Origin: Trebouxia sp. TZW2008
Lineage: Eukaryota > Chlorophyta > Trebouxiophyceae > Trebouxiales > Trebouxiaceae
DNA: 64,000 nucleotides
Assembly: GCA_002118135.1 (NCBI GenBank)
Contig: BDIU01000417.1
Location: 1-64,000 of the forward strand
Direction: 5' to 3'
Shown: positions 4,882 through 61,160 of the stretch, one piece after another
Layout: each line of letters starts with the position of its first letter
Position numbering within the stretch: position 1 is the stretch's first letter
Made by a program: the position numbers and the translations under genes
Notes under the pieces: model-generated
Seen by the model: only the letters and a program-made list of their open reading frames with translations
Databases searched by the model: none
What the model was told of the DNA's origin: nothing

Positions 4882-7800
4882 CTACTCTTCATCCTCGTCC
4901 TTGTCTTTGTCATCGTCCTTGTCTTCAGCCTTTTCAGGCACCTCATCTGCAGGAGCCTCCTCAGTCTCAGGCATCGCTTCATCTGTGTAATTCTGCAACC
5001 AGCAACACCCACCTGAGCATGTCCTCAGCGCAACAAAGCCACATGAAGCTTGAGATGCTGCCAGCCAAGAATGACCAGTTAATTTGTGTTGGAGCTGATG
5101 GCACAATTGCAAATGTGCGTTGCTGAACCTGACTGGCTGCGATGCTTTCATCTTGACATACGATGAGAAGGAAAGCTGCCTTACAGCTCACTTGCTCGAA
5201 CGCATTGTCTGGTACAGACTACAAGCGCATAATGGGCTTGTTCATTCATGCGTTCAACACGCATGCTGAACAGGCTCAGCAGGCCCAGCTAGGTACATGC
5301 TAGAGCAATCAAATGCCTCCAACCATTTTCAGTTTTGTGCTAATTTAAACCATCTATTCTGCACTCTAAGGGCCGAGAGATGTTAACAGCTCACCTGCTC
5401 AAAAGCATTGTCTGGTACAGAGTACAGCCGCATCACTGGCTTGTTGGGCTCCTTCACAATGATGAACTTGCCCTCATCAAGCTTGAGACACACGTCAATG
5501 ATGGCTCTTACAATGCCCCAGCAGTTCTCCATGTGCAGGTTGATTTGCATGGCAAAGTCCTTGGGCTTGCACACCTGCATCATCAATAACAAACTCAAAG
5601 ACAAGCTTTCTGTAACAGCAAACTGCAGGAAAAGGATTTTGCTGTTTCTGCTTGCACACCGCCATCATTCTTCTTTATGAGCGTACAGTCAACAAAACAA
5701 AAGTCAGCATTGCAAATTGGTTGTTTTGAGCAATTTCCAATGCGCTGTATCATGGACATACTGGCAGGACGCCCACAAATCAAGCAGTTGTCCATATGGC
5801 ACCGTAAGCATAGCCGACCATGTTTGGGCACTGAGGCTCTGCTCCTTCATGCTTTACCATGAATGGAGGGTCATCGACCACACTAGAAATCACAGAACAG
5901 ACACCAGACAAAAAACAAATGGTGATACTCTGCAGAGGAGAGAAAAGTCATACCTGTGTGCCAAGTATGACATGATGCCTGGAATCTCTCTGCTGTGCTC
6001 TGCTGACATGACTGTCAGTCATTACAGTATCTTGCATTCCAGAGCAGAAAAATTGCATACCTGTGTACCCAGGATCACATGATGCCTGGGATCTCTTTGC
6101 TGTACTCTGCTGACATAGCCCAGCTTGATAATCTCGACACCTGAGACTAGAGCTGCTGCTGTCCACTTGGCTAGCTTGTTTGCGTTGTTCTTCAACTCTG
6201 TAGCCAGCACTGCTCCTCTTTGCGTTTCTAGCTTATGCCGCCAGTCAACACCTGCAAGGTTGCACACCGTTGTCAATGAGGTGCTGTCCATACTGATTGC
6301 TTGTCTACTCTGTGGCCAGCAATGCTCCTCATTGTGTCTCTAGCCTATGCTGCCAATCATTATCAATTAGCAGTGAGCTGCTGTCCATTTTGGCAACTTA
6401 TGAGTTTTGTTTGGCAGCTCTGTGACTAGCACTGCTCCTCTCTGCATTTCTAGCTTACGCTGCCAGTCAACACCTGCAAGGTCCTGCGTCGTCATCAGTA
6501 TGTTGTGATGCAACTGGCAAGATTGACGGAGTTGTGCTTAAGGTCTGTGGCCAGCACAGCTCCTTTTTGTGTGTCTAGCTGATGCCACCAGTCAACACCT
6601 GCAAGATTGCGCAACACTACAGATGAGCTGCTAGGTGTTTGGCCAGCTACAACAAACAACAGATGAAAGCTTTGTCATGCATACTGATACATGCGTGATA
6701 TACGCAGCAGCCAGGCTGTCGCCTGCAGGCCTCCAAATTGAGCCTTCAGAAGGCTTTAGGGTGTCTCAGAAGTCTCCTGGTCACAACATTCAACGTGGGC
6801 TCATTCTCACTGAATGAAAAGAGTGCGATTGGGCACCAATCACCACCTTCAGACTGCAGTGATGCCTGTGAGCAAGGATAATAATTGTTCCAAAAACTCC
6901 CAACTGAGGAGTAAGAGGCTTAGGTGGTATGGACATGTCTGCAGGATGCTAGAGACTAGGTTGCCTAAGCAAGGATAATTTGATGTAAAAACAATCTTCT
7001 GCCAACAAATGCAGCCTTGTCAGCAAAAACACTTTTTGATTGCAGGAGCCTCTGCAGAGCTCACTCAATATACCGACACGTCTCAACAAGGAAGTCATTG
7101 AGCTTCACTGATACAGACCTGTTCTTGTACAGCAGTGAGCTTTGAAGAAAATGGCATAGCCAAATGGGTCGCTGCAAACCCTGCTTACTGCCTGATCACA
7201 TTTCTGCATTTAATCACATGGATTCTACTCGTAATTATACGATTCTTGAGTCCACAGAAGCTGGCATTGCTTCTTGAGAGCACTTCATTGACTGAGAACG
7301 CTCTGCAGCAAGTCAATCGATCAATCATTCAATAGAATTCACAGTCCAGGGTAGGGAGCCAGATGTGACTCATCAGACTTCCTGGCTTGAAAGCAGAGGT
7401 GAATGTGTCTGGCAACCAAAGGCAGCTGATCAGTGGCAAGTGGCCTGACCAAATGTCACTGAAGAGCTTACTCAAGACGTGATCACCTCTTGGATAATTT
7501 AGATGATGAGGTGTCTACTAGAGGGATTCAGTGACATTTTGACTTGAGAGAGCTTTGCAGCAACACGCATGCCAAGCATTACTAAAGATGCCCAGATGGG
7601 TGTCTACTAGAGGCATTCAGTGACATTTTTACTTGAGTGAGCTTTGCAGCAACATGCATTTGCCAAGCATTACTGAAGATGCCCAGATGGGTGTCTACTA
7701 GAGGCATTCAGTGACATTTTTGCTTGAGTGAGCTTTGCAGCAACATGCATTTGCCAAGCATTACTAAAGATGCCCAGATGGGTGTCTATTAGAGGCATTC

Positions 7801-10800
7801 AGTGACGGTTTCATTTGAGTGAGCTTTGCAGCAACTAGCATTTGCCAAGCTTTACTAAAGATGCCCAGTTTGTGAGCACACTTCAGCAAATGACTCAATA
7901 GCTTCGCTCATAGGAGTATGACCTTGACTGAGTGGGCTCTACAGAAGCTGGTATTCGCACAATTGCACTTCAGGGCTTACTCAGTACATGACTACCGGTC
8001 GACAGTCACAGCACTGGGTTTTGCTTGTCGAGAGGCAGTCATTGACTGAGTATGCTCTGCAGAAGCCAGGATTTGCAAAGAGTCGCTGCAGCGCAACATC
8101 TGAAGACCTCCTACAGCTAGGAGCTTTCACTTGTGGGGGTACAACTGTGTAGCAAGCAAACTCTGCAGGAGCTGGCATTGCCAAAATGTCAATATTGCAG
8201 GGAGCACAATTACAGATTCTCAATTGACTAAGGCTGTCAAAATTTGCTTGCCTGCTGGATGCTACGATGTCCAGGCAGTCTGGCAGACAGGCTGGCAGGT
8301 AGACAGCCCAATTCATCAATTGGCAACTTTGTTATGATGGCCCACCTGTGAGCTTTGGATCAAACTCATTGAGGGCTTTGACAGACAGCAGCTCATCCTG
8401 CCCCTTGTGCTTCAACACTCCGTCAATCTCACACCTCACCACTAGCTCAGTGTCTTGCGACACCTTGTACTTACGATACCTGCAGCAAGATTCACAGTAT
8501 GAGGGCAAGCGGCTTGCAGGCAACTTTGCTGCATCTGTCTGCACATAGCTAGGTCATGGCTCCTCAAAAGCAACCGTGCAGCTTGTGATGATATCAACAT
8601 CTGTGCTGTCAGACTGGCTTGTGAGTCCGGGAATGAAGCATGTGATTGATGCATGTTGAGACACTTGCAAGCAGATGAGATGACCTGTCCTGTTTTAAAA
8701 TCATGACAGCAGCAAATTTTGACACTGGCGGCTCTATATTACCGTCAACCACAAAGTCAGGTCAGGCTGTTGAAGCTACTTCCAACTGCTGCTTTCCATG
8801 CCGGCCAATGTTCAGTGTGATGTTCACTGTGATCACAGGTGGTATGGTTTGACAAGACTGGCTTTACCTGTATGCTGTAGAGGCTAGGTTCTCATTGCCC
8901 TCAGCAAATGGATTTTTGCTGCCACAATCATACCTCTCACCATCTCCCACTAGCACCTGCACTTGCCAGCACTTGTGTGAAGCAAAAGCTTGCAAGCGAT
9001 GCAGAAAGTCACATGCTAGTTCAAAATGAATGCCATGCAATTATAAGCAGCAAATGCATGCTGGGTGCAAGGGTGAATGTAAATATGGTAAAACTTATGA
9101 CAACAACAGAGCAGCAAGTACAGCGCAGGCAGCGCAGCACAGCACAGCACGGCACGGCACGGCCCAGCCCAGCACAGCACGGCACGGCACGGCCCAGCCC
9201 AGCCCAGCCCAGCCCAGCCCAGCCCAGCATGATCGCCGCCGAGTAGGCTAGGCATGGCACGGCACAGCACAGCACAGCACAGCACAGCACAGCACAGCAC
9301 AGCCCAGCCCAGCCCAGCCTGAACCCATCCAGCAGGCACAGCGCAGCAGGCACAGCGCAGCACAGCACAGCACACCTGCTGTGAGAAGGCTTGATTGACA
9401 GCAGTGGCCTCCTGAGAAAGCTGCTGCACTCCATTGATGTTGTCTTTCTCCTCCAACACAGACTCAGGCGCTGTTTCAGCCACAGTCAAGTAGTCTAGGT
9501 TGCTGCCATCTCGCTTGTCAAAGAAGAGCTTGTCTCCTGCTCTGGTAACCACAATATCCCAGGAGTAGACAGACCGAGGGGCGCACATGAGACTGGTCAA
9601 TAGGACGTCTGTCATGAAGACTGTAGCCTTGTCTTCGCTGGCTAGCTTCCTGCAAATCAGCATAGCAAACGTCGGATGATGTGCATTTGGCATGTAAGGG
9701 ATGAGTCAATCACAACACTGACGAAGACTGGTCAACAAGGAGTCTGTCGTGAACACTGTGGCCTAGCCTTTGCTGGCAAGCTTCCTGAAGATTGAAACAA
9801 AGGAGGCTGACAACATGCATATGTTGACCTAGGCACAAGGACAAACACACCAGCTGCATGAACATTGGGAGATCAGATTTGCATAGTGCAAAGATACTGC
9901 ATTGCAGTAGCCTAACTTGTACATGACACAGAACAATGGGCATTCAGCACCTGTCACGAAGACTGTGGCTCCCTTGGCTGACTAGCTTCCTGAATAACAA
10001 AAGAGGGACCAAAGTGACGACACAGATTGAACAGCTCAAACAGGAAAGTCCATCAAAGGGCTTAAGTCAGCTGTGTACCTGATGACAGGGTCATCTGACG
10101 TGGTGACGCTCTTGAAGACCTTATTAGTGCGCTTCAAGGGACGGTCAGCCGTGGGCGTAACACAGTAATACACCTTGTCACAGTAATCCAAGGCAGGCCA
10201 GATTCAGCTCTGTACCTGATGACAGGGTCATCTGATGTGGTGACGCTCTTGAACACTTTGTTGGTGCGCTTCAAGGGGCGATCAGCCTTGGGCGTAACAC
10301 GATCGTACACCTTGTCGTAATACTCCAAGGACCCACAGAAGGCAATGTCCTCTGGCTTGCCCACTTGGAAGTTGAGCTTGGCCAGAGAGGTGAAGGGAAT
10401 GGACTCCACGACTGGCCATTCTGGCCTGATATCCACAGAGCTGCTGTATGTGACTTGCTGCAACAAATCAGACGTGTCAGTTGGATGAGGATTAAGAGCA
10501 GGTGTCTGGGACCTGCCAGTCTGGTTGATGTCCACAGGGCTGCTGTGTGTCACTTGCTGCATGCAACAGCAAGAGTCAAATCAATGTATGGTTTGCAGGC
10601 ACTGCAAAGTCAACTCGACCAATAAGGTGAAGGCGATGGACTCCATCTTTGGCCATCTGGCCGGATATACACAGAGCTGGTGTATATGACTTGCTGCAAA
10701 CACCAGCAAATGTCAGCATCACAGAGCCAGACAGAGTGAGAGTGGGGAGGCATGAGTGCCAGACATGCCGGCAGCAGCTTGTTCCTGTGGCCTGATGTCC

Positions 10801-12947: not shown

Positions 12948-15900
12948 TCACAAATTCTTGAGATGCTTTTGCAGATGCTCTAAACCATTTCTGCACACCC
13001 AGCCAGCGACCACAACAAAAGCTGCAGCAGCCACCAAAACAAGGCCGAATACGTCCATCATCAGTTGCTGATACCATGGCGTGGTGTTGACAGGGTTGTC
13101 TAAATATGCATTGCCCTTGGTCCAAGCTGCTTGCTCTATCAAGCCTGCACACAAATGTAAGCCCTTTCATTGGTGAAGGTTGACTTGCTGTCTAGTAAAT
13201 GAGACAGTGCATTGCTGTGACCAGGCCAGCAGCAATGCATCTTGTACAATTTGAAAACTGCTCATTTAGTCTGGCCATTGGTGAACCTGCTGTCAAAAAT
13301 GAGGTCAATACTGGTTCAATGCTATGAACAGGCCAGTAGCAATGCATTATACGAATTTGAGAAGGGCAAAGATTCTGGTGCATCACTCATACCCCAAGCT
13401 GTGAGTAATGGTCTGTTGTGACTGCTACATGCACAGTTGGGCACACATGACAAATTTCACATAGTCTACTGCTGCAAATAATTCAGCGGCAATGCAACTT
13501 TGTGAATCTTACAAGATTGAGGAGCGGATGCAGATTCTGGTGCAGCACTCATACCCTCAGCTGTGAGTGATGTTCTGTTGTCACATGTGTCACAGCCATG
13601 TAGAAGGCTGAGTAGACAAGCTTGACATGTGCCTCACATGCACAACACACAATATAAAATGTATAGACATGGGATGCGTGGAGACTCATCAGCTGTGCAT
13701 GAGCTGTGCAACGAACCTTGAGACAATGGGATGCCTCAACATGAGCTGAGGAAGCGATTGCTGGTTATGACCAGCTGCGAAAGCAGTCGAGTTGTATGCT
13801 ATGGTGCACTTGAGTGGTTGATGCATTGATTGATTGTTTACGCAGTGACTTGAATGACTCACTTGCTGCCTGACTGGCAGGACTCCAGCGGGTAGCTCTT
13901 ATCAGGCGGGAAACTCTGCTGGCATTGCCAGCAAAGCTAGGGTTCTGCAACACCCGCTGCAGAGCACGCCTCAGGTTCTGTGAGAGTCCTGGGGCATCAT
14001 TCACATCCACGGACAGACCAAAGCCCTGCTCTGTTGCTCTGGCCATGTTGTCTGGCTGCTCAGCAAACAGCGGCAAGCCAACAATTGGCACTCCATGATA
14101 CGCTGCCTGAAAGTCAAGCAAGTCAAGCTAACGTCATCAGTGAATGAAGCCCCAATTCAACATGATTGATCTAAAGCATAACGATGGGGTTTCGACAGTC
14201 CTGGGGCACCGTCCACATCCACAGACAGACCAAAGCCCTGCTCTATTGCTCGGGCCAATTTCTCTGGCTGCTCAGCAAACAGCGGTAGACGGACAATTGG
14301 CTTTCCATGATCTGCTGCCTGACAGCCATTGTAGTGTTGTCAGCAGAATACGTACCTTTGAGTTCTGATGAATGGTCTCATGCATGACCAGCCAACAGCG
14401 GCAGGCCAACAATTGGCACTGCATGGTATGCTGCCTGCCAAATGCAAGTCAGTTTTTCTGTCAGCAACAGAGCAATTCACCATGATTGAGTTGATGCATG
14501 GCATTGATGACGCTGTTTATAGCAGCATCACTTGTGCTGATGACACTTGTGCGTGCACACACTGATGCCACGTCACTTGTGCATGCACACACTGATGGCA
14601 CGTCGCTTGTGCTGGTGCAGAGCCATGCCAGACTGCAGTGCATCACTCTACCGATTCTGCTCTTCACTCCTGATGCTTGCCTGGAAAGATGTGAACAGCT
14701 GCTGTCTGATTTCATCAAGGCGTGTTTGGTGCCAGGATTGCCTGAGTGTGTGGTGCTGATGGCATTGGATTTAACTCATTGAAGCTATTTGTGCCAGCTC
14801 ATGTCAGAAAGGCCGCTGCTTCTGTATCTACCAAAAGGATCATGTAACCCCACCAGCAAGCATGAAGCCCAAAGTGATGGTAGCATTGGCTGTATGTGAT
14901 TGAAGCTTGGTCAATGAAGGGAGCTTGCTAAATTTTTTGATTCAAAACCAAAAGTGTTTACCTCATTGAAGCTGTTTGTGCCAGCTTGAGTCAGGAAAGC
15001 TCGAGTGGCTGGATGCCCAAGCACGTCATTCTGCGGCGCCCACTCTATCAAGCGGATGTTGCTCGACAGTGTGATGTTTCCTACGCCTAACAGCTGCTGA
15101 TCAGCTGCTGTGAGCTTCCACAGGACAGGTACTGGCGCCACTGCTGCCAAGGCTTCTGCCACCGCTTGCAGCTCATGCTTCTCTGCATGGTATAGAAGCT
15201 ATGAGATTCCTCAGAGGAAAACAAGTGCTGGAGAAAGGTTGCCAAGGCGTCTGCCCCCGTTTGCAGCTCGCACTTCTCTGCATGCATAAAAGTTGTGATT
15301 TTTTGTTAGGACAACATCTGCTGGAGAAAAACTGCCAAGGAGTCTGCCACTGCTTGCAGCTCATGCTTCTCTGCATGTGTAGAAAATAATGATTTTGGTT
15401 TGGGAAAAAAACATGCTGGAGAAAAGCTACCATGGCGTCTGCCGCCGCTTGCAGCTGATGCTTCTCTGCAAGCATGAATTGCATCAGAAGTTCTCATTCT
15501 CAAGACAGGTCTTGAGCCTATTTCTGGGACCAGCTGAGCTTCTCGATTGCATGGCGTGGCAGGTTGTGGCATACAGAGAACCCTGTGCAGTCGGACTGGT
15601 CCAAGCGGACTAGTGTGGGCACAGACAGAAACAGCGTCAATATTTGTTGCATGTTGCTGGCTTGGTCCCTGCAGAATCTCGCCAATTTGTGTCATATTAG
15701 CGTGCAGCTTGAACTTTTTCGGACCAGGGATGGCAGAGAAACAGAGGGGGGCATACACCACCCCATTTGGGCTAGTCTACCATTGCACCTAGAGTCAAAG
15801 TTGCTGCGACACTGCATGCACAGTGCTTACTGGGAGCATCGGAATATCCCAAGAATGCATACACAACCCTTTTTGGGCTGCTTTGAAGCCAGCCATGGAA

Positions 15901-28355: not shown

Positions 28356-28890
28356 GCCCCTCTGGTTGCCAGTAATCTGTACTCTGCTTTCTGTGAGTCT
28401 CTGGCACGAATCATGTGTGTTCGACACAAGATTGCAACGTTTGCACAGCAGTGCAATGTAGTTAGTATAAGTGTCTTGGTATGTGCCTTTTCTGATCGTA
28501 CAATGCTTAGGCATCAGCTGATCATGACGTATGCTTGACCTTTTGGCATGGCTGGCTGCAAGCAGCTTTCTCAGCAGCTTTCTGCTTGCATTCAGGCCTG
28601 ATTCTCAGCAGCTTTCTGCTTGCATACAGGCCTGATTCTCAGCAGCTTTCTGCTTGCATACAGGCCTGATTCTCAGCAGCTTTCTGCTCTCATCAGCTGG
28701 CCATGATGCATGCTTGACCTTTTTGCATGGCTGGCTGCAAGCAGCTTTCTCAACAGCTTTCCGCTTGTACAGGGCTGATTCTCAGCAGCTTTCTGCATGC
28801 ATGCAGGGCTGGTTCTCAGCAGCTTCCTGCTTGCATACAGGGCTTGTCCTTAGCAGCTTCCTGCTTGCATACAGGGCTGAGGGCGTGTTT
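28356..28890 (+). repeat. intergenic holding minisatellite built from exon-start echoes
   Basis: From about 28545 to 28874 a unit of roughly 42 bp, (T/G)(C)TCAGCAGCTT(T/C)CTGCTTGCATACAGG(C/G)CTGATTC, repeats at least seven times, in two blocks separated by a second copy of GATGCATGCTTGACCTTTTTGCATGGCTGGCTGCAAG. The last unit ends exactly at the acceptor ATACAG|G (28874) of the first coding exon of the next gene. This is therefore also an acceptor-edge array. No separate gene seen. Confidence 0.85.
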
Positions 28891-31800
28891 ATGGTACCAG
28901 AATTGAAGCCATTGCCTCCAACTTCAGTGAAGAAGGACATCACCACAGCTCAGCAGTTGAAGCCTGTAAACAAGCCTACTGCACATGCGTCTGATGCTAT
29001 CAAGGCAGTGGGGCCAGCTGTCAACTTCAGGGTGCCTATGGTCACCAGGAGGGCAGCGTCTCGCCTGCAGCAGCAGAATGAAGTCAGCCAAAGGTGAGCA
29101 GTTGATAGCTGAACGTATCATTTTGCAATTTTCCAACTCCAGGGCACCTGGCATGTCTTCAAGGGCCACATCCCGCCTGCAACAGCAGAGTAGCACTGAC
29201 AAAAGATAAGTCTTCGTCACCTGTTGATGCACAAAACAGTGTTCAATGATTGATTACATGCTTGTGTTGTTGTTTGCGCATGTGTGTCCCAGCGGCAGCA
29301 GAGCAACCTTGACCAAAGATAAGTGCTACCTAGCCTGGCGTCGATGACTTGGACCTACAGTGATTGTTTCATGCTTGATTGTATGCTTGCCTTGCTGTTT
29401 CTGCATGGGTGTCCCAGCAGCAGCAAAGCAAAGTTGGTCAGAGGTAATCAGATTGGTGTACCTGCTTTTGATGCGTAGCACAATTTCCAGTGCTTGATTG
29501 CATGCTTGTGCGGTTGTTTGCGTCAGCACTGCTAACACCCATGCGTACTGCTCGCCTTTGGTTTACCTAATTCTGCAGCCGATTCAGCAGCAGAAGCTGG
29601 GAGCCAAAGGTGTGCAGTATGCAACTTGGTTCAAAAGCTCTGCTGCTGTACAAGTCTGTGATGCTCAACAGGAGTGTCTATTTCATTACATCCTGATGCT
29701 CTGGTACACAAGCTGTTGAGACTGTATCAGCCGCAGTTGCAAATGCAACTGTAAAGCCGCGTGATTGTTCTGCAAACAGATTGGAATCCATCAGACAGCA
29801 ATGAATTTCTAACAGACTTTATCAGCAAGCACAGCTCTGCATAGAAGGTTTGACGTTTTTCTGTAAATCTACATTGTCTCATCATGAAATGCTCCTTCTG
29901 AAGCCCCTAGAAGAAGCTAGCCTCATCATTGATTTTGACTTGTTCTTTGTCTTCTTGCTGTTTTACCACCAGAAAGACATGGAGCATGACGTTATCCATC
30001 ATCAAGCAGAACAGTCTGGTACTGTCTCTGGGGTCAAGGGTCATCTGAGCCAGGATTCTGCAAAATAAATTTCCTCTTCATTGTATCGGCTTTCAGGAAA
30101 CCTGTTGGTCGCCAAAGTAGAGCAAAGCGCAAACTGAAACTTTGTGGGTGCACTCAGCCACCACCTAGAAAGTAACTTAGCACGCTTCTACCTTGCAGGT
30201 CTGCTGCTAGTCTCGCTCGTGCTCAGGCTGAAGCCAGGATCAAAACAGAGGCAGAGCAGAAGGTGCATGATGCTCTCAAGCAGAAAGCCTCAGCAGCAGC
30301 CAGGGCTAAGCAAGCCAGGCAGGCTGCCTACACCACACCTGCCAGCAGCACTGCCAAAGTTGGCAAGGGCGATGAAGCAGACAGCACCACCACTGGTAGA
30401 AGTGGTGGCAGAGCCCAAGGCAAAGAAGAACAGGTGTCAGCAGCAGCAGCAGCAGCAGCAACAGCGGCAGCAGCAGCTGATGGCCCCTTAATTGCTGCTA
30501 AGGTTGTCACCCACAACCACGCCGCCCCTCCTTCATCTTCTTCTTCAGCCCTTGATGCTGCTGCTAGCAATCCTGCCACTATGCCCCTTGCTACAGCTGG
30601 TGCAGCAGTGAAGCAGGGTAAGGCTGCACAGAGGAAGGCTGAAAAGGCAAAGAATAAAGCTCAGAAGAAAGCAGCTCTGCAGCTTGGCAGTGGCGTCAAC
30701 ATCACCACAGCCTCAGTGGCTCAGACGGCAGCCCACATGGTGAAGGCAAATGACAGTCCTGTCACTAGCCCTACTGCTGCTGTTGCTGCTGTCCAAGTGC
30801 GGAGTCCTTCAGCTCCTGTTGTTGACAAGGCTCTTGCAGCTGTTGAGGCAGCCAAGGGTGCAGTTGTCATGGATGAGCCAGGTGCAGCATGCAGGTGCAC
30901 TGCTGATGCAGACTTGAGCAACAGCACCTCAGGAGCGCTGACAGATGCAATCGTGGCTAATTCAACTGCAGCAGGCAGATGCACTGCTGATGCAGACATG
31001 GGCAACAGCACTGCAGGCGTGCTGCCAGACGCAGGCTCCACTGCCTCACTCAAAGTTGACATCAATACGACAGAAACTGCCCCCGTTGTTGCTCAAGCCG
31101 CTGCAGCTGCACCTGAGTCAGTCCTGGATGCAACAGCACTGACACCCTGCGCCTCTGTCAGCAGTGCCTCTGCTGCTCAGACCAGCTCTGCAGACTTCCT
31201 GCCAGCTGTAAACTCTCTGAAGAGTGAGGCAGACGCTGACTTGGTCCCAGTACCAGCACAGTCTGCTGCACCACGGCCAGTGGCTGCCAATGGCAATGGC
31301 CAGTCATCAGTCATTGTGAGCACTCTTTCACATGACAATCGCCCATCAGATATGGAGGGATCCATTCCTGCCAACAGCGGATCCTCCAATGACAGTGGTG
31401 AGCCCCCGTGTTTGTGCAACATTGATGCTACAACACTTGCAGAAGTTTGAGCTCTATTGTCTGTGTGCAAGTTGTTGTTACACTTTGTGCGATACTACAC
31501 ATATGCATGCATTCAGCACCACATCATTCTCACAAAACAGAGGCGTCACATACATGTACTTTGGTCAGCGTACACATAATGGTATGGCATTAGGTGACTT
31601 GACTGTATAATCACCTCATTTACCTTTTCCAAGATCATGTAAAGCTTGTGCAATCATTTGGCATGCAATTGATTTTCAAGGGTTCACTGATGACAAGTTG
31701 GCTGCGCGTATTGCGTACTGCAGCTTGCGTAAGCCAGCCTCAATGGCATCTCTGCTAGCAAAACCAGTTAATCGTAGCGCTCTGCCTCAAGGCAAAGCAG

Positions 31801-38523: not shown

Positions 38524-38554
<31 letters not shown>

Positions 38555-40710
38555 AATGCATCAGATCACAATCAGATATACACCTGGTGAAATCAGAGCA
38601 GTCTATTCTGACAACAAACTGCACTGCGCCAAGCTGCATCAGCTGCTGCAACACATCTGCTTGCAACACTGTCAACACATCAGTAATCTTAGCAGCATGA
38701 GTTTGCCTACCTGGTCAAGTCAGAGCAATCTGTTCTGACCAGAGACTCCACATAGCCCAGTTGGAACTGCTCCCTGTGTCACAAACGCAACAGCACAGAA
38801 ACATCATCAATTTGCACATCTGGTGAATTCAAAGGTTTGCAAACCTGGTGAAATCGGAACAGTGAGTCCGGACCACAAACTCGACAGCGCCAAGCTGCAT
38901 CAGCCGCTGCAACACATCCGCTTGCAACACTGCCAACACAGCAGCAATGCCCTTCTTGCTGATCAGGGTCTCATGCAGATAAGCATGTTTGGCGTTCTCC
39001 CATACCCCGGGATGGTCCACTCTTGTGTGTTCTGGAACCCCTGAGAGGTTGTTCAAGGGTAGCTGGAATCCCTGTTCCTTGTACAAGTACCTCTGGACAA
39101 TCTGCAGCAGAAGACAGTATATAAGTCATGCGCTGTTGAGATGCGGCCAGTTGCCCTTACTGATATGGGTCACATGCAGATGTGCATGTTTGGCATTTCC
39201 CGGACACCGGGATGTTCCACTGTTGTGTGCTCTGGGACCCCTGAGAGGTTGTTGAGGGGTAGCTGGAATCCCTGTTCCTTGTACAAGTAACTCTTGACAA
39301 TCTGCAGCAGCAGATGGTGTTTACGTTGTGCCCTTTTGTGACGTTGAGCAATGCCCTTGTTGCTGAAGAGCGTCTAATGCAAGTCATTGTGGTTGGTGTC
39401 CTGTTAGATTCCAGTTGATCCACTATTCTGTGCTCTGGAACCCCTGAGAGGTTGTTGAAAGGTAGCTGGGATACACGTTCCTTGTACAAGTACCTTTGAA
39501 CTATCTGCAGCAGCAGATGATATGTGACATGTGCCCTTTTGTGACTTTGAGCAATGCCGGTCTTGCTGAAGAGCGTCCAGTGCAAGTAAGTATGGTTGGT
39601 GTCCTCCTTAATTCCAGATGATCCACAATCGTGTGCTCTGGAACCCCTGAGAGGTTGGTGAAAAGTAGCTGGGACACGTGTTCCTTGTACAAGTACCTTT
39701 GAAGTATCTGCAGCAGCAGATGGTATGTGACATGTGCCCTTTTATGATGTTGAGCAATGCCCTGCTTGCTGGTGAGTATCTTGTGCAGGTAAGCGTCGTT
39801 CTGGCATTTTGGATGGTCCACTGCTGTCTGTTCAAGGGTAGCTGGAACCCCTATACCGTGTACATATGAACAATCTGCAGCAGCAGATGGTATGTAAGAT
39901 GTGCCCTTTTACGACGTTGAGCAATTTTGCAGCCTGCATGGTGTCTTTGGCAAGGATGCAAACTATACCTATCCTCAGCTGCACACGCCTTACACAACAC
40001 GAACTGTACCCTTCCATGCAGCAATCCTCAGCAACTTTGATGGGTGACCATTCAGCGTGACTGTGCAGCTTGAATCAACATGCAACTGTCACTGAACATC
40101 CTCTCATGCTGTGCTGTGCTTATCTGAGCTATCATTGCCAGTGCTGTCAGGGAGATGTTGCATCAGACCTGAAGGACTTCCTCTGGGTTCCTGTCACTTC
40201 CCACAGATGGCAGGTGGCTCAGTTTGTTCCTGGCAATGTCCTCAGCCATCCGCTGAATGCGCTTTGCATAAGAGGCAACTGGAAGCTTGACTGATGAGTG
40301 TGACACCAGCGCATCATCCTCAGCAGCAATTTGAAAGGCTGCATCTGCCAGGTTGATTGCTGCCTCCCCGTGAGCAATATTTTGTACGAAAGCCTTTCGA
40401 GCTTCGAAAGCATGAACCTCGGAGAAGTCAGCCCTGGTGATCAGGTTTTACACCATCAGGCCAGATGCTTCGGTGCAGATGCAGGCAAGTGAGCGAAAAG
40501 TAGACCTATGCTTTGAGACACTGACCTCCGGTAGCGCGGGTCTGCTTCAGCGGGGACCCGGTCATCTGCTAGAGCGCACGGGCTATGTCGATTGCAGTGT
40601 CGATGTCTCTGTGTAGGCACACCAACTACGCGCCCGGGCCGCAGCATGCGAGACGCTGTCTGGTGCTGAGGCTGCAGCAGACCCTGGATCCCGCTGCTTT
40701 GCAACAGCAT
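35302..40710 (-). CDS. SirB1/transglutaminase-like protein, probably chloroplast
   Basis: Exons: 40710-40526, 40433-40169, 39101-38845, 37859-37646, 37407-37311, 37041-36923, 36651-36474, 35508-35302; about 505 residues. The first exon is Arg/Gln/Ser-rich and lacks acids early, like a transit peptide. Exon 2 (AINLADAAFQIAAEDDALV...LPVASYAKRIQRMAEDIA) matches the pattern of the SirB1 N-terminal/Transglut_core2 family seen in plants. Exon 3 (YLYKEQGFQLPLNNLSG...AYLHETLISKKGIAAVLAVL) continues it, with the family's rrG.pi.La.ly motif. Exon 4 contains MITRPDGSLLNTCTSDAVIQ and RFLKRAFWPF. Function of plant members is poorly known. The join between exons 7 and 8 is unresolved: phases 1 and 0 do not match, so a small exon is missing or the donor near 36447 is used. 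Introns carry some of the largest echo arrays here. Confidence 0.62.
35637..35882 (-). repeat. two acceptor-edge echoes of SirB1-like last exon
   Basis: Copies at 35637-35700 and 35817-35880 share CAGGCTTCTGAGCTGTGTCTGTTGTTGAGTATGCTCGCAGCTCTGCATATGCCTGC with each other almost perfectly. They match the genuine exon start at 35455-35512 (GCCTTTTGGGCTGCGTCTGTCATTGAATATGCTCGCAGC). Translation AYAELRAYSTTDTAQKPDT against genuine AYAELRAYSMTDAAQKADA shows frame retention. Confidence 0.93.
37205..37312. repeat. GGGCA-rich pentanucleotide run
   Basis: Interrupted units of GGGCA at 37220-37305, ending at the donor (37310) of SirB1-like exon 5. As in the eIF3d intron 4 satellite, the array abuts the 5' splice site. 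Confidence 0.8.
37925..38228 (-). repeat. acceptor-edge echoes of SirB1-like exon 4
   Basis: A 120-bp copy at 37972-38096 matches genuine 37752-37872: TGAATGACTGCATCGCTGGTGCAGGTG(T/C)TCAGCAG(A/G)GATC, then GG(C)GTCATGCCTGGCAGAATGGCAAATGT. A fragment at 38165-38228 repeats GTCATGCC and CCCT(T/G)CACTGCAGAAC. Translated copy reads VPTFAILPGMTRRMMTCPDRSLLSTCTSDAV. Confidence 0.93.
38326..38752 (-). repeat. four donor-edge echoes of SirB1-like exon 3
   Basis: Copies at about 38326-38370, 38425-38470, 38583-38692 and 38703-38752 of the genuine 38840-38950. The third is 110 bp long, with CACTGCGCCAAGCTGCATCAGCTGCTGCAACACATC against genuine CGACAGCGCCAAGCTGCATCAGCCGCTGCAACACATC. Donor-side sequence ACCTGGTGAAATC is kept. 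A CAG-type run lies between copies at 38525-38560. Confidence 0.9.
39150..39930 (-). repeat. four-copy ~200-bp array of exon-3 acceptor edge
   Basis: Units at about 39150-39316, 39351-39521, 39555-39721 and 39758-39891 copy the genuine exon-3 start (38935-39112). All share GAACCCCTGAGAGGTTG (GACCCCTGAGAGG in one; the fourth lacks this part), GTAGCTGG(A/G)A, TTCCTTGTACAAGTA and ATCTGCAGCAGCAGATG, i.e. exon sequence through the acceptor and into the intron. Units differ by 10-20 percent, so duplication was serial. Confidence 0.95.
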
Positions 40711-44721: not shown

Positions 44722-47700
44722 TTACTTCAAGCCTCGGGTCTCTGCCTTCTCATTGACAAGTGGCCCAGAGTTGAGCTGCTGCGTGAGAGACTTCTGTCCT
44801 GGCACCTCTTTGGGTCCATCAGGGGTGATGGGGCCCGGGATCTTCTTAATCTCACTGACAGGCAGCTGCAAACACACGTCCCATGCTTCAGCGCTGCAGA
44901 TCTCTGATGTTCTGTGCATTGTGGTCAGTGCAGTACCACTGTAGGCTCAAGGTAATGAGCAACAGATCAAAAAGATGCTGAACCCTCAACAAGCGTTTTT
45001 GCAGAGGATGATTGCACTGAACCAAAAAGTAGACTCAGATGATTCATAGCATATAGTGTATACATACATCAAGCTCATGTGACACATCAACATTAAGCGC
45101 TGTTGCTTTTCTGATGCCAGAGTAAAAGCGTATGTGGTAGCGAGGACTAGCCCAATCAAATTGATCAAATTGGCCATCATTTGACATTTCATGGGCATCA
45201 AGGTGTCGGGGGTGTCAGCACAAAGCTGCCTAAGCAGACAGGCAGCTTGAACAAGACATTTTGTGGTTGTGATCCTGAGTGCAGTGCAAAACTGAATACC
45301 CTCTGGCTTGCCATCCTCGATTCCTTCTGCCAACTTGTCAATGTGTAGCAGTACAGCAAGTGTCAGCCAAACAGAGCCTACTCACACCAATCACCACGTG
45401 ACAATACATGTACATCAAAACAACCACACTGCAGTCACCCCAATGGTCTTTGGCTTGCCATTGGAACCTTCTGTGCGGTCCTTACACAGTAATAGTGCAT
45501 GCAGTGTTTGATTGCTCAATCAATTGAAAGAACTGACTGACTGACCAACCGACTGATTGATCGCATGTCTAAGGCTCACCTGAATGGCCTGCTCCTTGCC
45601 GTCCCAGTCCTCAACACCTTCAGCCAACTTGTCAAAGCCCTCGGGTGTGTTGATGCGGCCAGCAATGCCCTCTGGGAAAAAGCCGCCCTTGCCATCTTTT
45701 GCTCCCAACATCAGGATGTTAAGATTCTGCAGGCACATTGTACCATGAGCTGGTGTCACAAGGACACTCAGTACAAAGACAGTTGCATTCTTGTGGTCAT
45801 TGACAGTGCCCTCTGGGGAGAAAACGCCCTTGCTGTCTTTTGCTCCTATTGTCAAGATGTTCAGGTTGCAATCAAAGGCATCAGCAGTTCATAGATGCAT
45901 TGAGTTCATTGCACAGGCTTGCTAAGCGTGTTTTGAGATCCAGGAGCTAGGCACGTATAGACGGAATCAACTGCCTCCATGCAAGCCTGTCAAAAGCTGC
46001 CTGCTTGCGCTGCATGGCAGGGCCTTCTTGCAAGGTATATGCTAGGTGCATGCTAGCTGTATACGCTTGAATTCCTTGGCACGTGCTTATTGGAAGGTAT
46101 ATGCTAGGGTGCATGCTTGCACTGCATGCTGGGGCTACATGCTGACGTGCTAGATTGCACGCCAGTGTGAATGCCTAGCATTGAGGCAAGTTGCCAACAG
46201 CACAACAGGGCTTCAATGCAGTCCTGCTGTGTAATTGGCAAGTAGCCTCAGTGCCAAGCCCCAGCAAGGCAGGGGATGATACTCGATTTGCCATTTGCAA
46301 TGTTTCATTGTCGACGGTGCAGACCAAATTTCACAATGGGCATAGATCTATGTCAATGCATCAAAGCGCTGTCATACTGCAGTGCAATGATTTGTGTGTG
46401 TTGTCAACTTGCTGTGAAATGATGTTGCCTGTTGAAACCATTGCTGAAGCCAAGTTGGATCTGCTTACCATGAGAGGAGTCCGAGAGAAGGACAGGCCGC
46501 GGATGTCAGTGGGAATGTTGTTCACAAAGGACCTGCAAGAACATCACACTTGCACTCAAATATAATGTGTCAGGTGACCACATGCCGGTATGCACATCAC
46601 CAGGACATAATCAGCACAGATATGCATATGCAGAAGCTGACATGACCACAAATTTGCATTCCATGCAGGACAAAGTGTACCTGGCTTCGTAAAGAACACG
46701 CAGTGGCATGCATGATCAAAATGAGCGTACAGACTCAGCAGCTTCACATATTTGCATGTTGTAAGGCGTCATTGTGTTCTGCCCACTTCCACCTGAAATG
46801 CAAAAGCTGACTTTGTGGAAAGCTTTTGCATCAGAGGAAAGCAGGATCTCACCCTGGCACTGTTATAAATCTGGGGTCCTTGTTCAACAGGCCTTGGTCA
46901 TCAATCTGCACAGTCAACACTTTGTCCTTGCCAAGAATTTACAGTTGAGCAATCAGTGCAAATATGCTGTTGCCAGGAATGCAAGCTGGCGCAAATGAGC
47001 TACTGCCAAAAGCATAGGTTGTGGCAAGCAATTCGAGTGTGCGACGCTGTTGCTGTCAGTCAATACACATTGCATGATCAAAGGCAACAATCCAGGCTGT
47101 TGCAAACAGTACAAGTATGCGACGCTGCTGCTGCCAGTCAGGCAGTGCATGCAGTAAGGACACTACGATGCAAGTCATTGCTGATAGCGACCTGACATTC
47201 AAGGGACAATGCTGTCATAGGCTTTGGCGCTGTTGTGACAAGGACTGATGCATTCAGGCACTGATCTGGAAAATGTGGCAGGCACATGCTGTGCTTAGCT
47301 TGTGCACTCAACTGTGCCAGAACAGTGTCGATGTGCACCAGCTTGCCAACAGCAAAGCACTATTAGGCAAGTTGTGACAAGTCTGCAATGGTGAAGGCAC
47401 CATAGTTCCAGAAATGGCAGAACCACTAAGTCACGCCAAAATAACATGCATGATGAAGTGTGACAGCACTTAATGAGTGTCATGCTAGTATAGCATGTGT
47501 ACGTTGATATACATGTTATAGATGCGCAGTCCACCAGAGCCGATATGTCGATGACAGAGGACCAAGGAAGCTTCAGTGGTGTCTTAAGCATGATAGTATT
47601 TGCAACACAATTTGAAACCAAGCTGATGCATATGCAGCACAATGAATCACAGTTGGGGGGTTACCTGAGGTCCGTCCATTGCGTCTCTATAGGCAGACAG

Positions 47701-50700
47701 CCTGGCAAACACTTGAGCCACTGTCTCATTGGTAGGAGGCACAATCTCATCTTTCAGGTCGTACAAGATTGATCTCTGCATAGCAGCAGCTTCTGTCATA
47801 TCAACAGTCAAGTTACTAGTCGAGTCAGGGCAAAGGGACCTTAAGCATGTGCTATTACTGTGCTGATGTGTTCTTGCAATGCACGTGCAAGGATTGGCTG
47901 ATTTGCAAAGACAATGATGTCATGCTTTGAAGAGCTGCAGCTGCATTTTATATCCTGGGCACAGGAGTGTCTGCAGACAGTGATCAATGCCAATGTCAAC
48001 GCATATGGATAGGGCCGTAGCAATTTGTTACTGCAGCTGCATTGCTCACAGCACAGAAGTCACAGATTGACGCTAGACCAACGCTGAATCAGGGCTGTGA
48101 TCCTGAAAACCGATACTAGGATGCGGACATACACTTGTTGTGACAGACGCACAATGACAAAAGGTAGCTGGCTCACCTCAATAGCAGCAAAAGCCGTGGC
48201 GGTGGTGGCAAGACCAGCTGTGGAATCTGCCAGGATGGGGTTGGTGTGCAACAGAGCTAGCCCCTGCAGCACATGCACTTTCTGTGTAGATTTCATAAAA
48301 GACCTCAATCAAGCAAGGATTTTCTCACTGAAAGCTGTGGCAATGGTGGCAAGACCAGCTGTGGAGTGTGCTTGGGTATGTATGCAGAGGATTAAGCCCT
48401 GCAGCACAGGCATATTGTAACAGAGTTGCACTGAATTTTGCACCAACTAGGTGAGCCATAACCTGTCCAGACGCGCCAGTCTGCAATGTGCTGTGCGCAG
48501 GCGCGTGTAAGCCCGCAGTTGTCAGCATGCTCAAGCAGTGCAATGTCTCCTGTGTGTACAACTGGATGAAATATAGACTCATTAGCGTCAAGAGGCTTGA
48601 GCAATGCTACAAGGGCATGATAACGCATGACAGTAGGTTTTGACACCCTGCATCAACAAAGCAAGCACTCCAAGTCTGCATGCACTCAACACATGTTTGC
48701 TGTGGAAGCTCAAACAGCTGTTGTTGCCTGGGCTTGCTCGTTTCACATGTTGGCTGGCACATGTTGTGTCAATCATGTCAAATAATTCCACAATGCAAGT
48801 ATGTTACATGCTTACACACTGCAGGAATATGATATAATGAGTGCTTAAACACATGCGACAGCAGGAATTAGACCTTGTTGCCGGTGGCGCCTAGCTCCTC
48901 CAGGAACACCATGGACAGCGCGAAGGTGGCATCATTCACATATGGATCTGCATAAAACAGAAGAGGTAAGTTATATTGGCTTGATGCTAAAGCTTGCGGA
49001 TGAATGTGTATCATGATGATGATTGCTGACAGTATATCACATGCATGTGCACACATGCTGTGGGTGTGGCAATCAGATCTGCATTCAATGCTGGTCGTCA
49101 GGAGGGTTGTCATGACATTCAGCAGTTGATCATCATGAATTGTGTGTATACTCACCATCAGCTCTAATCTGCCAGTGCAGCTGAATTGATGTTGCACTTG
49201 ACGTTATCAGATGCCAAAAGACTGCCTGCACCTGCTGCGATCTGACTGGACAAAACTTGATTTGCTGTTGCCAAAACTTGATTTACAGACCCAGCGCAAG
49301 TCATTCAATGATAAGGCGCATCTGTTGTCAAGGACTAATCCAAAAGTCATAACATGGTGCATGTCACTTGCCAAGAAGCATAATCAACTTAAAACAGAAT
49401 TGATTATGCTTCTTGGCATAAGAAGCCAAGAAGCATCCCACTGGGATGCCAATGGCAAAGCTCGAGTTCACTATATTTTGGGGCAAGTAATATGCATGTA
49501 ATGGATCTTCTGGATCAGTACACTCCACAAAGACACACTTTGATGCAGCAAACCACCATACGTAACTCAACCCACAACACATAAGGCGCAATATCATGTA
49601 TCACTGAGGTGCAGCACAAGCTGTGGAAGACGCAATATGTCGGCGCCAACACGTAATAAGTAAGGTTTTTGAAGTTTCGCTCCCTGAAAACACAAGTATG
49701 ATGATCCACTGCTTTGATACACTGCATGTCTACACAAGGAAAGGCAAACTCACCCCAGTCCTTGCCAAACAGCTTGGAGATGGTCTCTCCATCTTTCAAG
49801 CCGTATGCGCGTGCAAACACGGCGTTGAAGCCCTTGTCGTAGTCCACGTAGGGGCAAGGCACTGTAGCTCCTGCCTGCCTTGTGTACAGTGCATGACCCT
49901 GCAAAGACACACAGAACGTGAGGAATGTTCGCTGCATTAACAATCTCTGGATCTGTATGCATGCAAAGCCAAGACTGTGGCAGAAAATGCCCAAATCATA
50001 AAGATTCAAATTAGCCTGACAAATCACGCCTTGTCTCTTATTCACATGGGACATATGTCAGATTCTTGCAAGATACTTGATGAAAGAGGTTGCAAAAGCA
50101 GCCTGCACCTGGTCACACAAGACCACTTCTAACAATCAAGTCGCCACGCAGTCAAGGGCAATACCTGCTCACTCACAGCGCACTCCTCAAGCAGCCTTGC
50201 GCATCATTGTAACAGGTCTATAAGCATCAAAAGGGCTTGAAAAACAAGGCAGACCCTGCTAAATCAAGGCAACCCCTAACAATACTGTAATCAAGCAGTG
50301 CAAGGGCTTGCAAAGAAAGGTATTGCCCGCTCACCCATGACCACTTTCAAAATCCTGCTTAAGCATCAAACAGGCCCCTGAGAGCCTTGACTTTCATTTC
50401 AATTCAATTAAATTTCAAGCAGACGCCTGTGTTTTTGTAATCATCAACAAAAGCTGCAGATCAGGCAGAGCCACAAACTGACATGCAATAAAGTTGTCAA
50501 CAAAAAGTCAGAAAGCCTGGCAAATGAGGGCGGCAACTACTCACTCAAGGCAGCTTCTTCAGACTTGTGGCACATTGTGATGGATTATGACGGACTTGTC
50601 ACCAAGCAGTGAAAGGGCTTGCAAAGGAAGACACTACCTGCTCACTCAAAACAACCTCTGCAGGCAGGCTTATGCATTGTCATAAATAAAAGTGGCAGGG

Positions 50701-58500: not shown

Positions 58501-61160
58501 ATGAAGCTCAGACAATTACAGCAAGAACATGCAGCTTGGCAACCTCACACTCTCACTCAGCAATGTGACTGCGCGCTGTCAATTGGTCATGCTTGTTGAT
58601 TGCATGCTGATAGATAGCCCCACCTGCCATTTGTTTGGGTGCCATCATGCCCGCTCGAGTGTCCTGTGGGTTGTCGACGCTCACAGCCAGCAGCCAATCC
58701 CAACCAAAATCCTCAGTCAGTGCAGACGCAGGTGAGTACTGCCATGAAAAAGGGCTGCTACCTGAGGACAAAGGTGACTGCCGCTGCTGCTGCTACTGCT
58801 GCTGCTGCCGCTGTTGCTGCTGTTGCTGCTGCTGCGGCATGCATTGAAGATATGTGTATCTAGAACTCAATGGCAGGGAACCCTACCTGCCATTTGTTGG
58901 TCTCAATAGGGACCATCGTGCCAACCCGGGTGCCCTGGGAATTACCCACACTCATGGCCAGTAGCCAGTCTCTTTCAGGATCTTCGGTCAATGCAGATAC
59001 AGGTGAGCACAGCCAAGAAACAGGGCTAACTAAGATACATGCTGCTGCTGCTGCTGCTGCAGTCGCTGCTGTTGTTGCATGCACCAGGGGAACATGGAAA
59101 AACAGCAAGGGTCTCAGGTGACCCTACCTGCCATTTGTTGGTCTCAATAGGGACCATCATACCCACCCGGGTGCCCTGTGGGTTGTCCACACTCATAGCC
59201 AATAGCCAATCTCTTTCAGGATCTTCAGTCATCTCATACATGCGGTAGGCGTACTTCAAGCCAGCGTTCACTGATAGCTCCTCAGGTGTTTTGTGGCCAA
59301 TCTGTTTGAGCCATGTTGTGATCTCTGAAGCCTTGCCAGATGCATCGATGACTAAGTCAGCATCAAGAAGTTGACCATTTCTCAGCTCAACTCCTGCAAG
59401 CAGAACTCAGATGTCATGCGAAGGTCATACTAGATGATGTTGTGCCATGCATCGTGTCTCCATGTCCAATCTGATTAAGTCAGGTTGCAATTTATGACGC
59501 CTTGCCAAATGCGTCAGTGACCAAGTCAGCGTCAAGGATTTGGCCGTTTCTGAGCTGAACTTCTGCAAGCAGAACAGGAACTGCATGCATTCTTCAACTT
59601 GACCACAGTGCTACACATCTTGCAAAGCAATGGGTTGATAACAGCGACCCTCTGAGGTGATTCCGGAAGCAAATTTTGACCCCAGAGCAGCTACTGCACT
59701 GCATGTGCACAGGTGTCTGCCTGCAAAGGAGACTGACTCAACTGCTCTTCACATGCTCTGCCATCCTGAAAAGCTCAACTGTATGCCAATCATTGCACTT
59801 TTCAATGATGGCGCTAAGCTGGCATGCTGACTGTATCCAAGACAGGTCAGCCATGCGCCAAACAGGCACTTTGAATCCCACACTGAGTACCTGTCACACG
59901 CTGCTGGTCAGCATCATACTTCAGCTTCTTCACAGCTGCATCTGTCCTGACTTGTAGGCTGCCCACGCCCAGCACAAACTTGCGCAGCACAGTCTCATAC
60001 AGGTGACGGGAAGCTGCCAAGGAAGGAAGGCCATAAGCTCGTCCAGGCTGCCACTCTTTACCCCAGTTGCTCTGCAGTCAACAGCAGCTGGGCTGATTGC
60101 TTTCATACATGCATTTAGAGAAGAATGCAGCACCCAGCTCAATACCAATTGGATAGTAGCACACTTGATGTGCATGGTGGGTGAATGCAGCAAGCATCAT
60201 GTGTTGGCAGATTGTACATTCAAGCAGTTGTTGGCAGATGGCAAATGGCAGATCTAGCTCCATACACTACTAAGTCACTGCACATGCTCAGCACAGGTAT
60301 AAGTGAAAGAGTACATCTGTACATGACTAGCTGACAACTGTTTCAAGATGGTGTGCTGCAATGCTAGTGCCTGGCTTGTGTTAATACAAGCTTACAAAGT
60401 AGATGTCACCAATTTGGTCTATGTCCAGAGCGCCCGCATCTGACAGGGCCTGCTTGTATCCAGGGAACAGGCCCTCCATCAATTCCAGCCCCTTTTTGAA
60501 CATGATGTGAGGCTGCTTGTATTGTGACACATTGCGCCGTTTTTGCACTGCCCCCTGCAGTGGTCAGCTCTGCAATCTGCTCTGTGATTAACCACCGGAG
60601 GTTTAAAAACTCCCGCGGGTGGATTTGCCTCATTTGCCAGTGCAGGTCAATAAGCCAGCAGGTCGATTAACCACCATCAAAATAACACAAGGTTACTGAA
60701 CCAACACTGCTGGGCTCACTACCTCGTACTGCTCCCTCCATCGCTCTGTGCTATGCTCAGAGCTGCTGTCTGTGTGAGGCAAAGCACCACTGAAGTCGTC
60801 TTTGTCCAGTAAGGTCTGCGTCACATGCAGCTGCTCGGAAAATGGTTGCGATGCATGCAAGCCCAAAAGTAAGTCGTCCCCCTTGTGTAGTTTGGCAAAG
60901 AAGGTTGCTGCAGTAATAGGTCATCTGCTTGAGCTTACCACTTGGTTGAAGCGCTTGGAGAGCCCAGCTGCAGCGTACAGCCCAGCAAAACCTGAGCCGA
61001 CCACCACCGCATTAAGCTGACACTTTCTGCCAACTTGGGCGACGACGTGAACAAGAACGCGTCGAGAGCTCGGCAGTGATCGACTTCCCCTGATCGGCTG
61101 CTGCGCGGTGGGCAGCCTGAGCTGCCAACACGGGCACTGGTGCGGGAGCTTCATCTGCAT
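55522..61160 (-). CDS. FAD-dependent monooxygenase-like oxidoreductase
   Basis: Eight exons, 536 residues: 61160-60939, 60815-60723, 60554-60396, 60071-59891, 59393-59128, 58087-57851, 57123-56930, 55780-55522; all phases agree. A basic N-terminal leader (about 48 residues, possible transit peptide) precedes the dinucleotide-binding fold NAVVVGSGFAGLYAAAGL with G55, G57, G60. QPHIMFKKGLELMEGLFPGY, DADLVIDASGKASEITTWL and the FAD ribityl motif CVIGDAVCYFNPVN (G376-D377) joined to GQGMTVGMMGSELL follow in the order of the p-hydroxybenzoate hydroxylase-type fold. The closest pattern is the group of plant and bacterial FAD-binding proteins with weak similarity to halogenases and monooxygenases; the substrate is unknown. 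Nearly every intron carries echoes. Divergent from the coiled-coil gene by 392 bp. Confidence 0.85.
55855..55932 (-). repeat. acceptor-edge echo of FAD-enzyme exon 8
   Basis: GTGTCATG(C/T)AAG...CTTTCCTGTTTGGGCATCTGC(C)CC and CCCGACTTCCTGCA match genuine 55725-55787. Translation KSGTEGQMPKQESPCMTHLMG against genuine KSGAKVQMPKQESTYMTQLMG. Confidence 0.92.
56463..56882 (-). repeat. three donor-edge echoes of FAD-enzyme exon 7
   Basis: Copies at about 56463-56535, 56588-56655 and 56803-56882 of the genuine exon end 56920-56998. All show ACATGG(C/T)(A/T)TCTGT(T)CC.GCAGC(C/T)A, and the third continues TTCCAGGGGTAGTTTAACAGGCTGCCTAGCTGTTTGTG against genuine TTCCAGGGGTAGTCCAGCAGGCTGCCTAGCTGTTTGTG. 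Decay increases with distance from the exon. Confidence 0.95.
57358..57812 (-). repeat. two near-complete downstream copies of FAD-enzyme exon 6
   Basis: Copies at about 57358-57565 and 57600-57815 reproduce most of exon 6 (genuine 57851-58087) plus its donor and following intron, ending in CTTGTCCATCATGCTGACTAC each time. The distal one still reads GTALPPNGLCVNGDAVCYFIPVN with the GD motif and GTAAGC donor intact; the nearer one has frame breaks after ALPPTGFCVLGN. The unit length is about 240 bp. Confidence 0.95.
58145..58466 (-). repeat. two acceptor-edge echoes of FAD-enzyme exon 6
   Basis: Copies at about 58145-58262 and 58316-58466 of genuine 58000-58100. The first has GGGAGATTGCGTGCAAACTCCATGACACCGTCCTCATCC...GGGCAGTGATG against genuine GGGAGGTTGCGCGCAAACTCCGTGAAGCCGTCCTCATCCAAGGGACAGTGATG. 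Exon 6 therefore has echoes on both sides. Confidence 0.93.
58622..58998 (-). repeat. two donor-edge echoes of FAD-enzyme exon 5
   Basis: Copies at 58622-58738 and 58882-58998 of genuine 59122-59240. The nearer copy translates as TEDPERDWLLAMSVGNSQGT and continues with an intact donor (CTACCTGCCATTTGTTGG). The farther copy reads TEDFGWDWLLAVSVDNPQDT with more damage. CTG runs separate the copies. Confidence 0.96.
59485..59578 (-). repeat. acceptor-edge echo of FAD-enzyme exon 5
   Basis: GACGCCTTGCCAAATGCGTCAGTGACCAAGTCAGCGTCAAGGATTTGGCCGTTTCTGAGCTGAACTTCTGCAAGCAGAAC matches genuine 59326-59408 over its full length, including the acceptor CTTGCAG. Confidence 0.95.

Follow-up and report, generated by a model that had tools for sequence, protein, structure and literature searches.

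A stretch of DNA from the green alga Trebouxia sp. TZW2008, whose genus commonly serves as the algal partner in lichens, raised the question of whether its introns lengthen by taking up copies of the exon ends that flank them. An initial annotation had claimed that in most genes the splice junctions and adjoining exon sequence were repeated as diverged direct copies inside the introns. The window, i.e. the whole stretch analysed here, comprised 64,000 nt (contig BDIU01000417.1, positions 1-64,000) of an assembly of 68.5 Mb in 527 contigs, and its GC content was 0.46-0.53 for the most part. A sample of 18 stretches, 172.3 kb in all, was added from other contigs, and window and sample together covered ~236 kb of the 68.5 Mb at 19 places. 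According to the accessible text of PMC11523091, Trebouxia genomes measured 63-74 Mb with a GC content of ~50% and 9-16% repeats. The STT7-like gene of the window was 87% identical to a protein of Trebouxia sp. C0005 and 85% identical to one of Trebouxia sp. C0009. For the eIF3d and SirB1-like genes, the closest relatives were 90% and 84% identical, respectively, followed by Myrmecia bisecta (66% and 58%).

Gene models were produced by a small gene finder trained on the 236 kb of window and sample. It returned 87 confident models, which comprised 383 introns with a median length of 232 nt as well as 299 internal exons with a median of 110 nt, and it learned a (C/A)AG-GTRAG-like donor and a TGCAG-G acceptor (the second hyphenated part begins at the splice site). 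In these models genes were split, some copies were mislabelled as exons and cases were missed; 5 of the 87 contained internal stops, presumably at splice joins, where the finder made no check, and were retained. Pfam supported the cation efflux, UDPGT, ferritin-like and Trp_halogenase genes in hand-joined model proteins (the last of which we take to be the FAD-type gene), as well as eIF3d and UDPGT in raw frames. Rfam and tRNA scans of the sequence gave no matches. L012 (169 nt) was left out everywhere, as were models whose net score did not exceed 12, exons shorter than 15 nt in the edge test, and low-complexity segments in the spacing scan.

The initial annotation had proposed aligning introns with their own exon edges, and we ran this comparison on window and sample, using at most 150 nt from each exon end and counting a score of at least 34 as a match. 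An own flanking exon edge was matched in 22 of the 127 window introns and in 42 of the 256 sample introns, so the echoes also existed outside the window. In total, 64 of 383 modelled introns (about one in six) carried such a copy, and there were no antisense and no non-adjacent matches in window and sample with one random intron per edge as the control. A whole-exon version of the count gave 66/383. Introns with a copy had a median length of 305.5 nt (n=66) vs 214 nt for those without (n=317), with the proviso that longer introns offer more room for a match. At least one copy was present in 12/26 multi-exon models of the window and 26/58 of the sample, thus the wording "most genes" was slightly too strong. 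The models miss cases, however: STT7 scored zero in this count because its copies had been called as exons.

Exons of three genes were placed independently with homologous proteins, P0001 (eIF3d), P0121 (SirB1-like) and P0146 (STT7; a protein deposited from the genome of Trebouxia sp. C0005), and their junctions were checked. These genes contained 24 copies in 8 of 21 introns, with no antisense matches and no match among 462 non-adjacent pairs. The copy started at the exact exon edge in 17/24 cases and covered only part of the exon in all 24. The repeated segments were single in the homologous proteins (nine tested in P0001 and P0121, one in P0146), which supported the view that duplication ran across splice junctions while the outer copy remained functional. 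The features of these three genes were as follows, with exons mapped by homology.

10216..10457, minus strand: eIF3d exon (homolog P0001, 90% identical) with five copies of its acceptor edge upstream and one of its donor edge downstream
10515-10556, 10625-10693, 10788-10823 (97%), 10960-10992, 11068-11123, minus strand: the five acceptor-side copies of that exon; the segment occurs once in P0001
10079..10193, minus strand: donor-side copy of the same exon, 86% over 115 nt
9725-9784, 9951-9989, minus strand: two acceptor-side copies of eIF3d exon 9376-9649
6304-6359, 6377-6473, 6515-6598, minus strand: three acceptor-side copies of eIF3d exon 6061-6251
5954..6009, minus strand: donor-side copy of eIF3d exon 6061-6251, 88%
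5193..5242, minus strand: donor-side copy of eIF3d exon 5395-5574, 84%, with a stop codon
22471-22544, 22597-22642, 22736-22792, plus strand: three acceptor-side copies of STT7 exon 22863-23075 (one copy in homolog P0146), an exon that includes the HRD catalytic-loop segment
37974-38079 (89%), 38153-38202 (78%), minus strand: two acceptor-side copies of SirB1-like exon 37646-37859
38584..38687, minus strand: donor-side copy of SirB1-like exon 38845-39101, 85% over 104 nt
39156-39301, 39347-39504, 39550-39701, 39753-39794, 39829-39864, minus strand: acceptor-side copies of SirB1-like exon 38845-39101 with a period of ~203 bp; the segment occurs once in P0121

The claimed range of one to five copies was therefore borne out, with five acceptor-side copies at eIF3d exon 10216-10457 and five matching pieces at SirB1 exon 38845-39101. 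A low-complexity array of CAGCA-like pentamers was also present in the eIF3d gene (9107-9374), and the gene finder read part of it (9151-9318) as an exon.

The echoes reported in the UGT, desiccation (ferritin-like) and FAD enzyme genes were recovered on our own gene models with Pfam support. The gene at 28.9-34.6 kb was a weaker case, since its strongest match lay inside a minisatellite, beside non-coding pairs. The corresponding features, together with one from a further gene model, were located by self-blastn unless stated otherwise.

13982-14116 / 14194-14328, minus strand: UGT pair (PF00201), 84% across the acceptor edge of exon model 13863-14106, with an extra copy at 14389-14437
14770..15000, minus strand: UGT donor-side copy 14770-14813 of 14957-15000, 84% (with gene models)
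28568..28880, plus strand: 34/68-bp minisatellite that lies upstream of the 28.9 kb gene and is the source of its strongest echo (repeat scan)
30883..31033, plus strand: within-exon duplication with a spacing of 84 bp (in frame)
45663..45867, minus strand: acceptor-side copy 45804-45867 of 45663-45726 in gene model 44722-46664 (with gene models)
48190..48412, minus strand: ferritin-like (desiccation-type) gene, copy 48331-48412 of 48190-48277 (PF13668)
50608-50666 / 50691-50749, minus strand: donor-side pair of the ferritin-like gene (with gene models)
59294..59575, minus strand: FAD-type gene (PF04820), segment 59294-59406 with an acceptor-side copy at 59463-59575 that contains two stop codons
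58618-58990 / 58881-59231, minus strand: duplicated segment of the FAD-type gene, donor side of exon model 59039-59393

Several gene regions also contained CAG/CTG triplet-like runs (30438-30477, 51385-51418 and 58778-58835).

The polarity that had been described, with acceptor copies upstream of the exon and donor copies downstream, held but was forced by geometry, because the intron adjoining an acceptor edge lies upstream and the intron adjoining a donor edge lies downstream. The informative part of this pattern is that the functional splice sites are the outermost ones.

The sequence of the copies indicated their fate. In 78 matches, the mismatch between exon and copy at codon positions 1, 2 and 3 was 0.122, 0.123 and 0.235, which was the 1:1:2 ratio expected for a neutral copy compared with an exon in which only third positions can vary. 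Frame was shifted by 28 of the 31 indels in copies, and stops were found in 12 of the 59 copies without a frameshift. When eIF3d, SirB1-like and STT7 were taken alone, the mismatch was 0.130/0.099/0.252, 9 of 12 indels shifted the frame and 4 of 16 copies had stops. Thus, the copies decay neutrally, like junk, beside a constrained exon. Spacing was a multiple of three for 9/36 junction-spanning pairs, so an in-frame preference among them was rejected; for same-exon pairs it was 4/5, although two of the four came from one array, the fifth pair lay in a mis-modelled stretch, and later indels blur the comparison of the two classes. Since junction-spanning spacing ignored frame, indels shifted it and stops occurred, the copies were likely spliced out rather than tolerated in the protein.

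Decoy splice sites, which the initial annotation had anticipated, did exist: GT or AG was retained in 25 of 36 copies (acceptors 15/19, donors 10/17). Neutral decay predicted a survival of ~0.77 for these dinucleotides, from which the observed value did not clearly differ (p=0.32 overall, p=0.085 for donors alone), and there was accordingly no clear signal of either purging or preservation of the decoys.

Exon edges were not the only places where such copies occurred. Self-blastn of the window returned 66 pairs in direct orientation, 65 of which were separated by less than 1 kb, vs 5 inverted ones, 4 of which were self-palindromes; the direct copies seen in the initial annotation were thus real. 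After exclusion of palindromic self-hits (4 in the window, 8 in the sample), direct and inverted pairs within 1 kb stood at 65:0 in the window and 176:1 in the 18 other stretches, and Markov-1 simulations gave no such pairs. Local direct pairs contained 15% of the bases in the window and 15% in the sample, their identity was 70-92% (5th-95th percentile), and at least one was present at 16 of the 19 places sampled. Coverage was uneven, ranging from 0 to 38% per stretch (~38% in L008 and L018, none in L014, L019 and L020). Among the 241 local pairs, 43 touched no coding sequence (30 in introns and 13 intergenic). One array in a predicted eIF3d intron is the same kind of event away from any exon:

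7505..7868, no strand assigned: pure-intron tandem array of 4 x 91 bp, ~93% matching, including no exon (repeat scan)

The copies at exon edges thus seem to be the most conspicuous portion of a broader phenomenon, local direct duplication.

BLAST suppresses near-diagonal hits, and spacing was therefore re-measured by our own ungapped scan over offsets of 15-800. It yielded 185 distinct adjacent pairs with a median spacing of 161 bp, of which 127 fell at 80-199 bp with a steep drop at 200, while no adjacent pairs came out of a Markov-3 null that covered one third of the offsets. In window and sample together, the 185 spacings peaked at 140-180 bp, the lower flank of this peak being less certain because very short units were under-detected. 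The sizes of nucleosomes and Okazaki fragments lie close to these values. Minisatellites were rejected as the general class, since only 14/185 spacings were below 80 bp (with exceptions such as 28568-28880). Introners and transposable elements were rejected as well, within the window and sample: neither the edge test, with one random intron per edge, nor the 462 pairs of the three mapped genes gave a non-adjacent match, and the window pairs more than 1 kb apart amounted to one direct and one inverted. Self-blastn of the window showed a single clearly dispersed repeat (16286-16361, 55955-56030 and 1643-1696), whose two partners, one direct and the other inverted, are more than 14 kb away.

As for the way in which the copies were made, likeness extended past the junction into the intron, above the 95% level of a null of random intron pairs, in 27 of the 41 junction-reaching copies, and therefore the intron was already present when these were copied. 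Only 17/41 copies filled at least 85% of their spacing, where pure tandem decay predicted from ~32 (low indel rate) to ~21 (high indel rate). There were also short near-identical copies, such as 10788-10823 in eIF3d (97%, with unrelated or diverged flanks) and 22597-22642 in STT7 (98% over 45 nt). Both observations made some events look partial or non-tandem, and the data agree best with a combination of tandem insertions, partial ones and local non-tandem ones.

We propose, with a probability of roughly 70%, that repair makes local direct copies, mostly 80-200 bp apart, and that exon ends caught in introns in this way are spliced out and decay as junk. Staggered DNA breaks would likely be filled in and rejoined, leaving a local direct copy at that distance. 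Where the duplicated stretch crosses an exon edge, a spare exon end would come to lie inside the intron, where splicing would remove it from the outset and it would so decay. Exon definition favours outermost splice sites, and the splicing machinery would pick the outermost sites here in the same manner. Selection would meanwhile hold the exon copy still, so that old events would remain recognisable at exon edges after non-coding pairs had faded.

The initial annotation treated splice junctions as the special target, and one rival explanation makes them genuine hot spots, with splicing- or transcription-linked copying of exon edges into the adjoining intron. The distribution of the copies gave this reading some footing and spoke against purely random placement. 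A predicted exon edge was included in 85 of 103 clusters, compared with 71 +/- 3.9 under circular shift (none of 500 shifts reached 85) and with a share of 0.42-0.57 when uniform placement and decay were simulated; this edge share is, however, inflated by copies that the gene models mislabelled as exons. Repeat coverage was 0.209 in coding sequence, 0.151 in introns and 0.080 in unassigned DNA, and it was highest at exon edges, with intron coverage of 0.233 near the edge, 0.098 at 200-300 nt and 0.169 beyond 300 nt. The excess depended on the age of the duplications. Age was approximated as u, the divergence per lineage, from identity taken as 1 - 1.33u with an exon copy and 1 - 2u without. 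Coding and non-coding loci numbered 3:4, 17:8, 32:17 and 48:22 for u below 0.05, 0.08, 0.10 and 0.12 (cumulative, the youngest class being small), and all local pairs 198:43. From the second age class onward the ratio was near two, which favoured hot spots given a simulated birth ratio of ~1:1, whereas the exon share was lowest among the youngest duplications, probably because selection freezes the exon copy. Exon-copy pairs stay visible for longer, since they diverge more slowly and only one partner can be lost. We infer that this longer visibility of selection-held exon copies accounts for most of the exon-edge excess, and a true but mild preference of about two-fold is possible. Together with the 3:4 ratio of the youngest class, the pure non-coding duplications of the same kind (30/241 pairs in introns and 13/241 in intergenic DNA) left the special-target claim unsupported, and we regard the hot-spot explanation as rather unlikely.

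The other alternatives fared worse. Tandemly duplicated exons could have been kept as alternative or mutually exclusive exons, and an open frame or splice-site consensus was indeed kept in some copies (e.g., STT7 22736-22792 and eIF3d 6377-6473). The neutral codon-position pattern, the frameshifts and the stops pointed the other way, as did the fact that each of the 24 copies in the homology-mapped genes covers its exon only in part, and the single segment in their homologous proteins, which made this explanation very improbable. Equally hard to credit was the Rogers model, in which introns are born when an exonic AGGT segment is duplicated in tandem and the echoes would be birth marks. That mechanism is known, with 188 catalogued events in the accessible text of PMC3443670, and 14 of the 41 copies lacked intron-side likeness above the null; the 27 with such likeness beyond the junction argued that the unit was not purely exonic. 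Collapsed or duplicated reads would be conceivable in a draft assembly of 527 contigs, but assembly errors would be near-identical, and pairs of 70-92% identity with frameshifts and stops made an artefact exceedingly improbable. Overall, the interpretation given in the initial annotation was partly supported, and we retained repair-made local copying as the preferred explanation.

Tandem exon duplication with mutually exclusive exons produces adjacent exon copies with splice sites; unlike these, the alga copies were partial, neutral and absent from the homologous proteins. Both small tandem duplications and the gain of introns by duplication are already known. In rice, the insertions described by Vaughn and Bennetzen in 2014 are reportedly recent polymorphisms. 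A review (PMC7407515) reports, in its accessible part, that rice has local insertions of 10-1000 bp, some tandem, some partly tandem and some non-tandem, and ascribes them to patch-mediated repair of double-strand breaks (Vaughn & Bennetzen 2014, as cited there). Like the alga copies, these are direct and local, either tandem in whole or in part or derived from sequence within ~200 bp of the break; in contrast, the alga copies were old and decayed, made up 15% of the sampled sequence and were read against splice junctions. According to the accessible text of PMC8355091, small tandem duplications have been demonstrated to form when CST/Pol-alpha-primase fills in 3' overhangs and the ends are joined. 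They are likewise small, direct and homology-independent, although they arose at induced breaks in mammalian cells, and the link to the alga would go by analogy. Intron gain by tandem duplication is described in the accessible parts of PMC2891723, PMC3443670 and PMC4974935. In the first of these a local copy of exon material is also absorbed by splicing, but a new intron arises there, whereas an existing intron was lengthened in the alga; the last mentions one 83-bp duplication within an existing potato intron, which was set aside. Introners are widespread intron-related copies dispersed across genes, as far as the accessible text of PMC9860276 goes, unlike the alga copies, which had no match to the non-adjacent introns tested. 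We found no description of duplications across splice junctions as a common means by which introns lengthen, in literature that was mostly outside subscription journals and partly accessible, and this is therefore weak evidence of novelty. Among the Trebouxia genome papers, the accessible text of PMC11523091 did not contain the words "intron" or "tandem", and that of PMC12712428 had them only in one reference title.

These results carry a warning for annotation, since an ab initio gene finder called several copies exons (STT7 and SirB1-like). To our knowledge, intron lengthening without transposons is poorly documented. In this alga, the source of the added intron DNA was readable in about one-sixth of the modelled introns because coding selection pins one of the two copies. 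Junction-spanning copies provide events that can be dated, as well as a unit size, and could serve to test exon definition in an alga, since each duplication leaves the cell with an identical acceptor upstream or donor downstream that it has to pass over. We tentatively suggest, as a possibility that we hold to be somewhat doubtful, that introns of the whole lineage may grow mainly by one local copying process with a preferred size of ~160 bp, i.e. nucleosome- or Okazaki-sized. A caught exon edge would then be a built-in clock with one side frozen and the other neutral, and each junction-spanning event may be a natural test of two identical competing splice sites.
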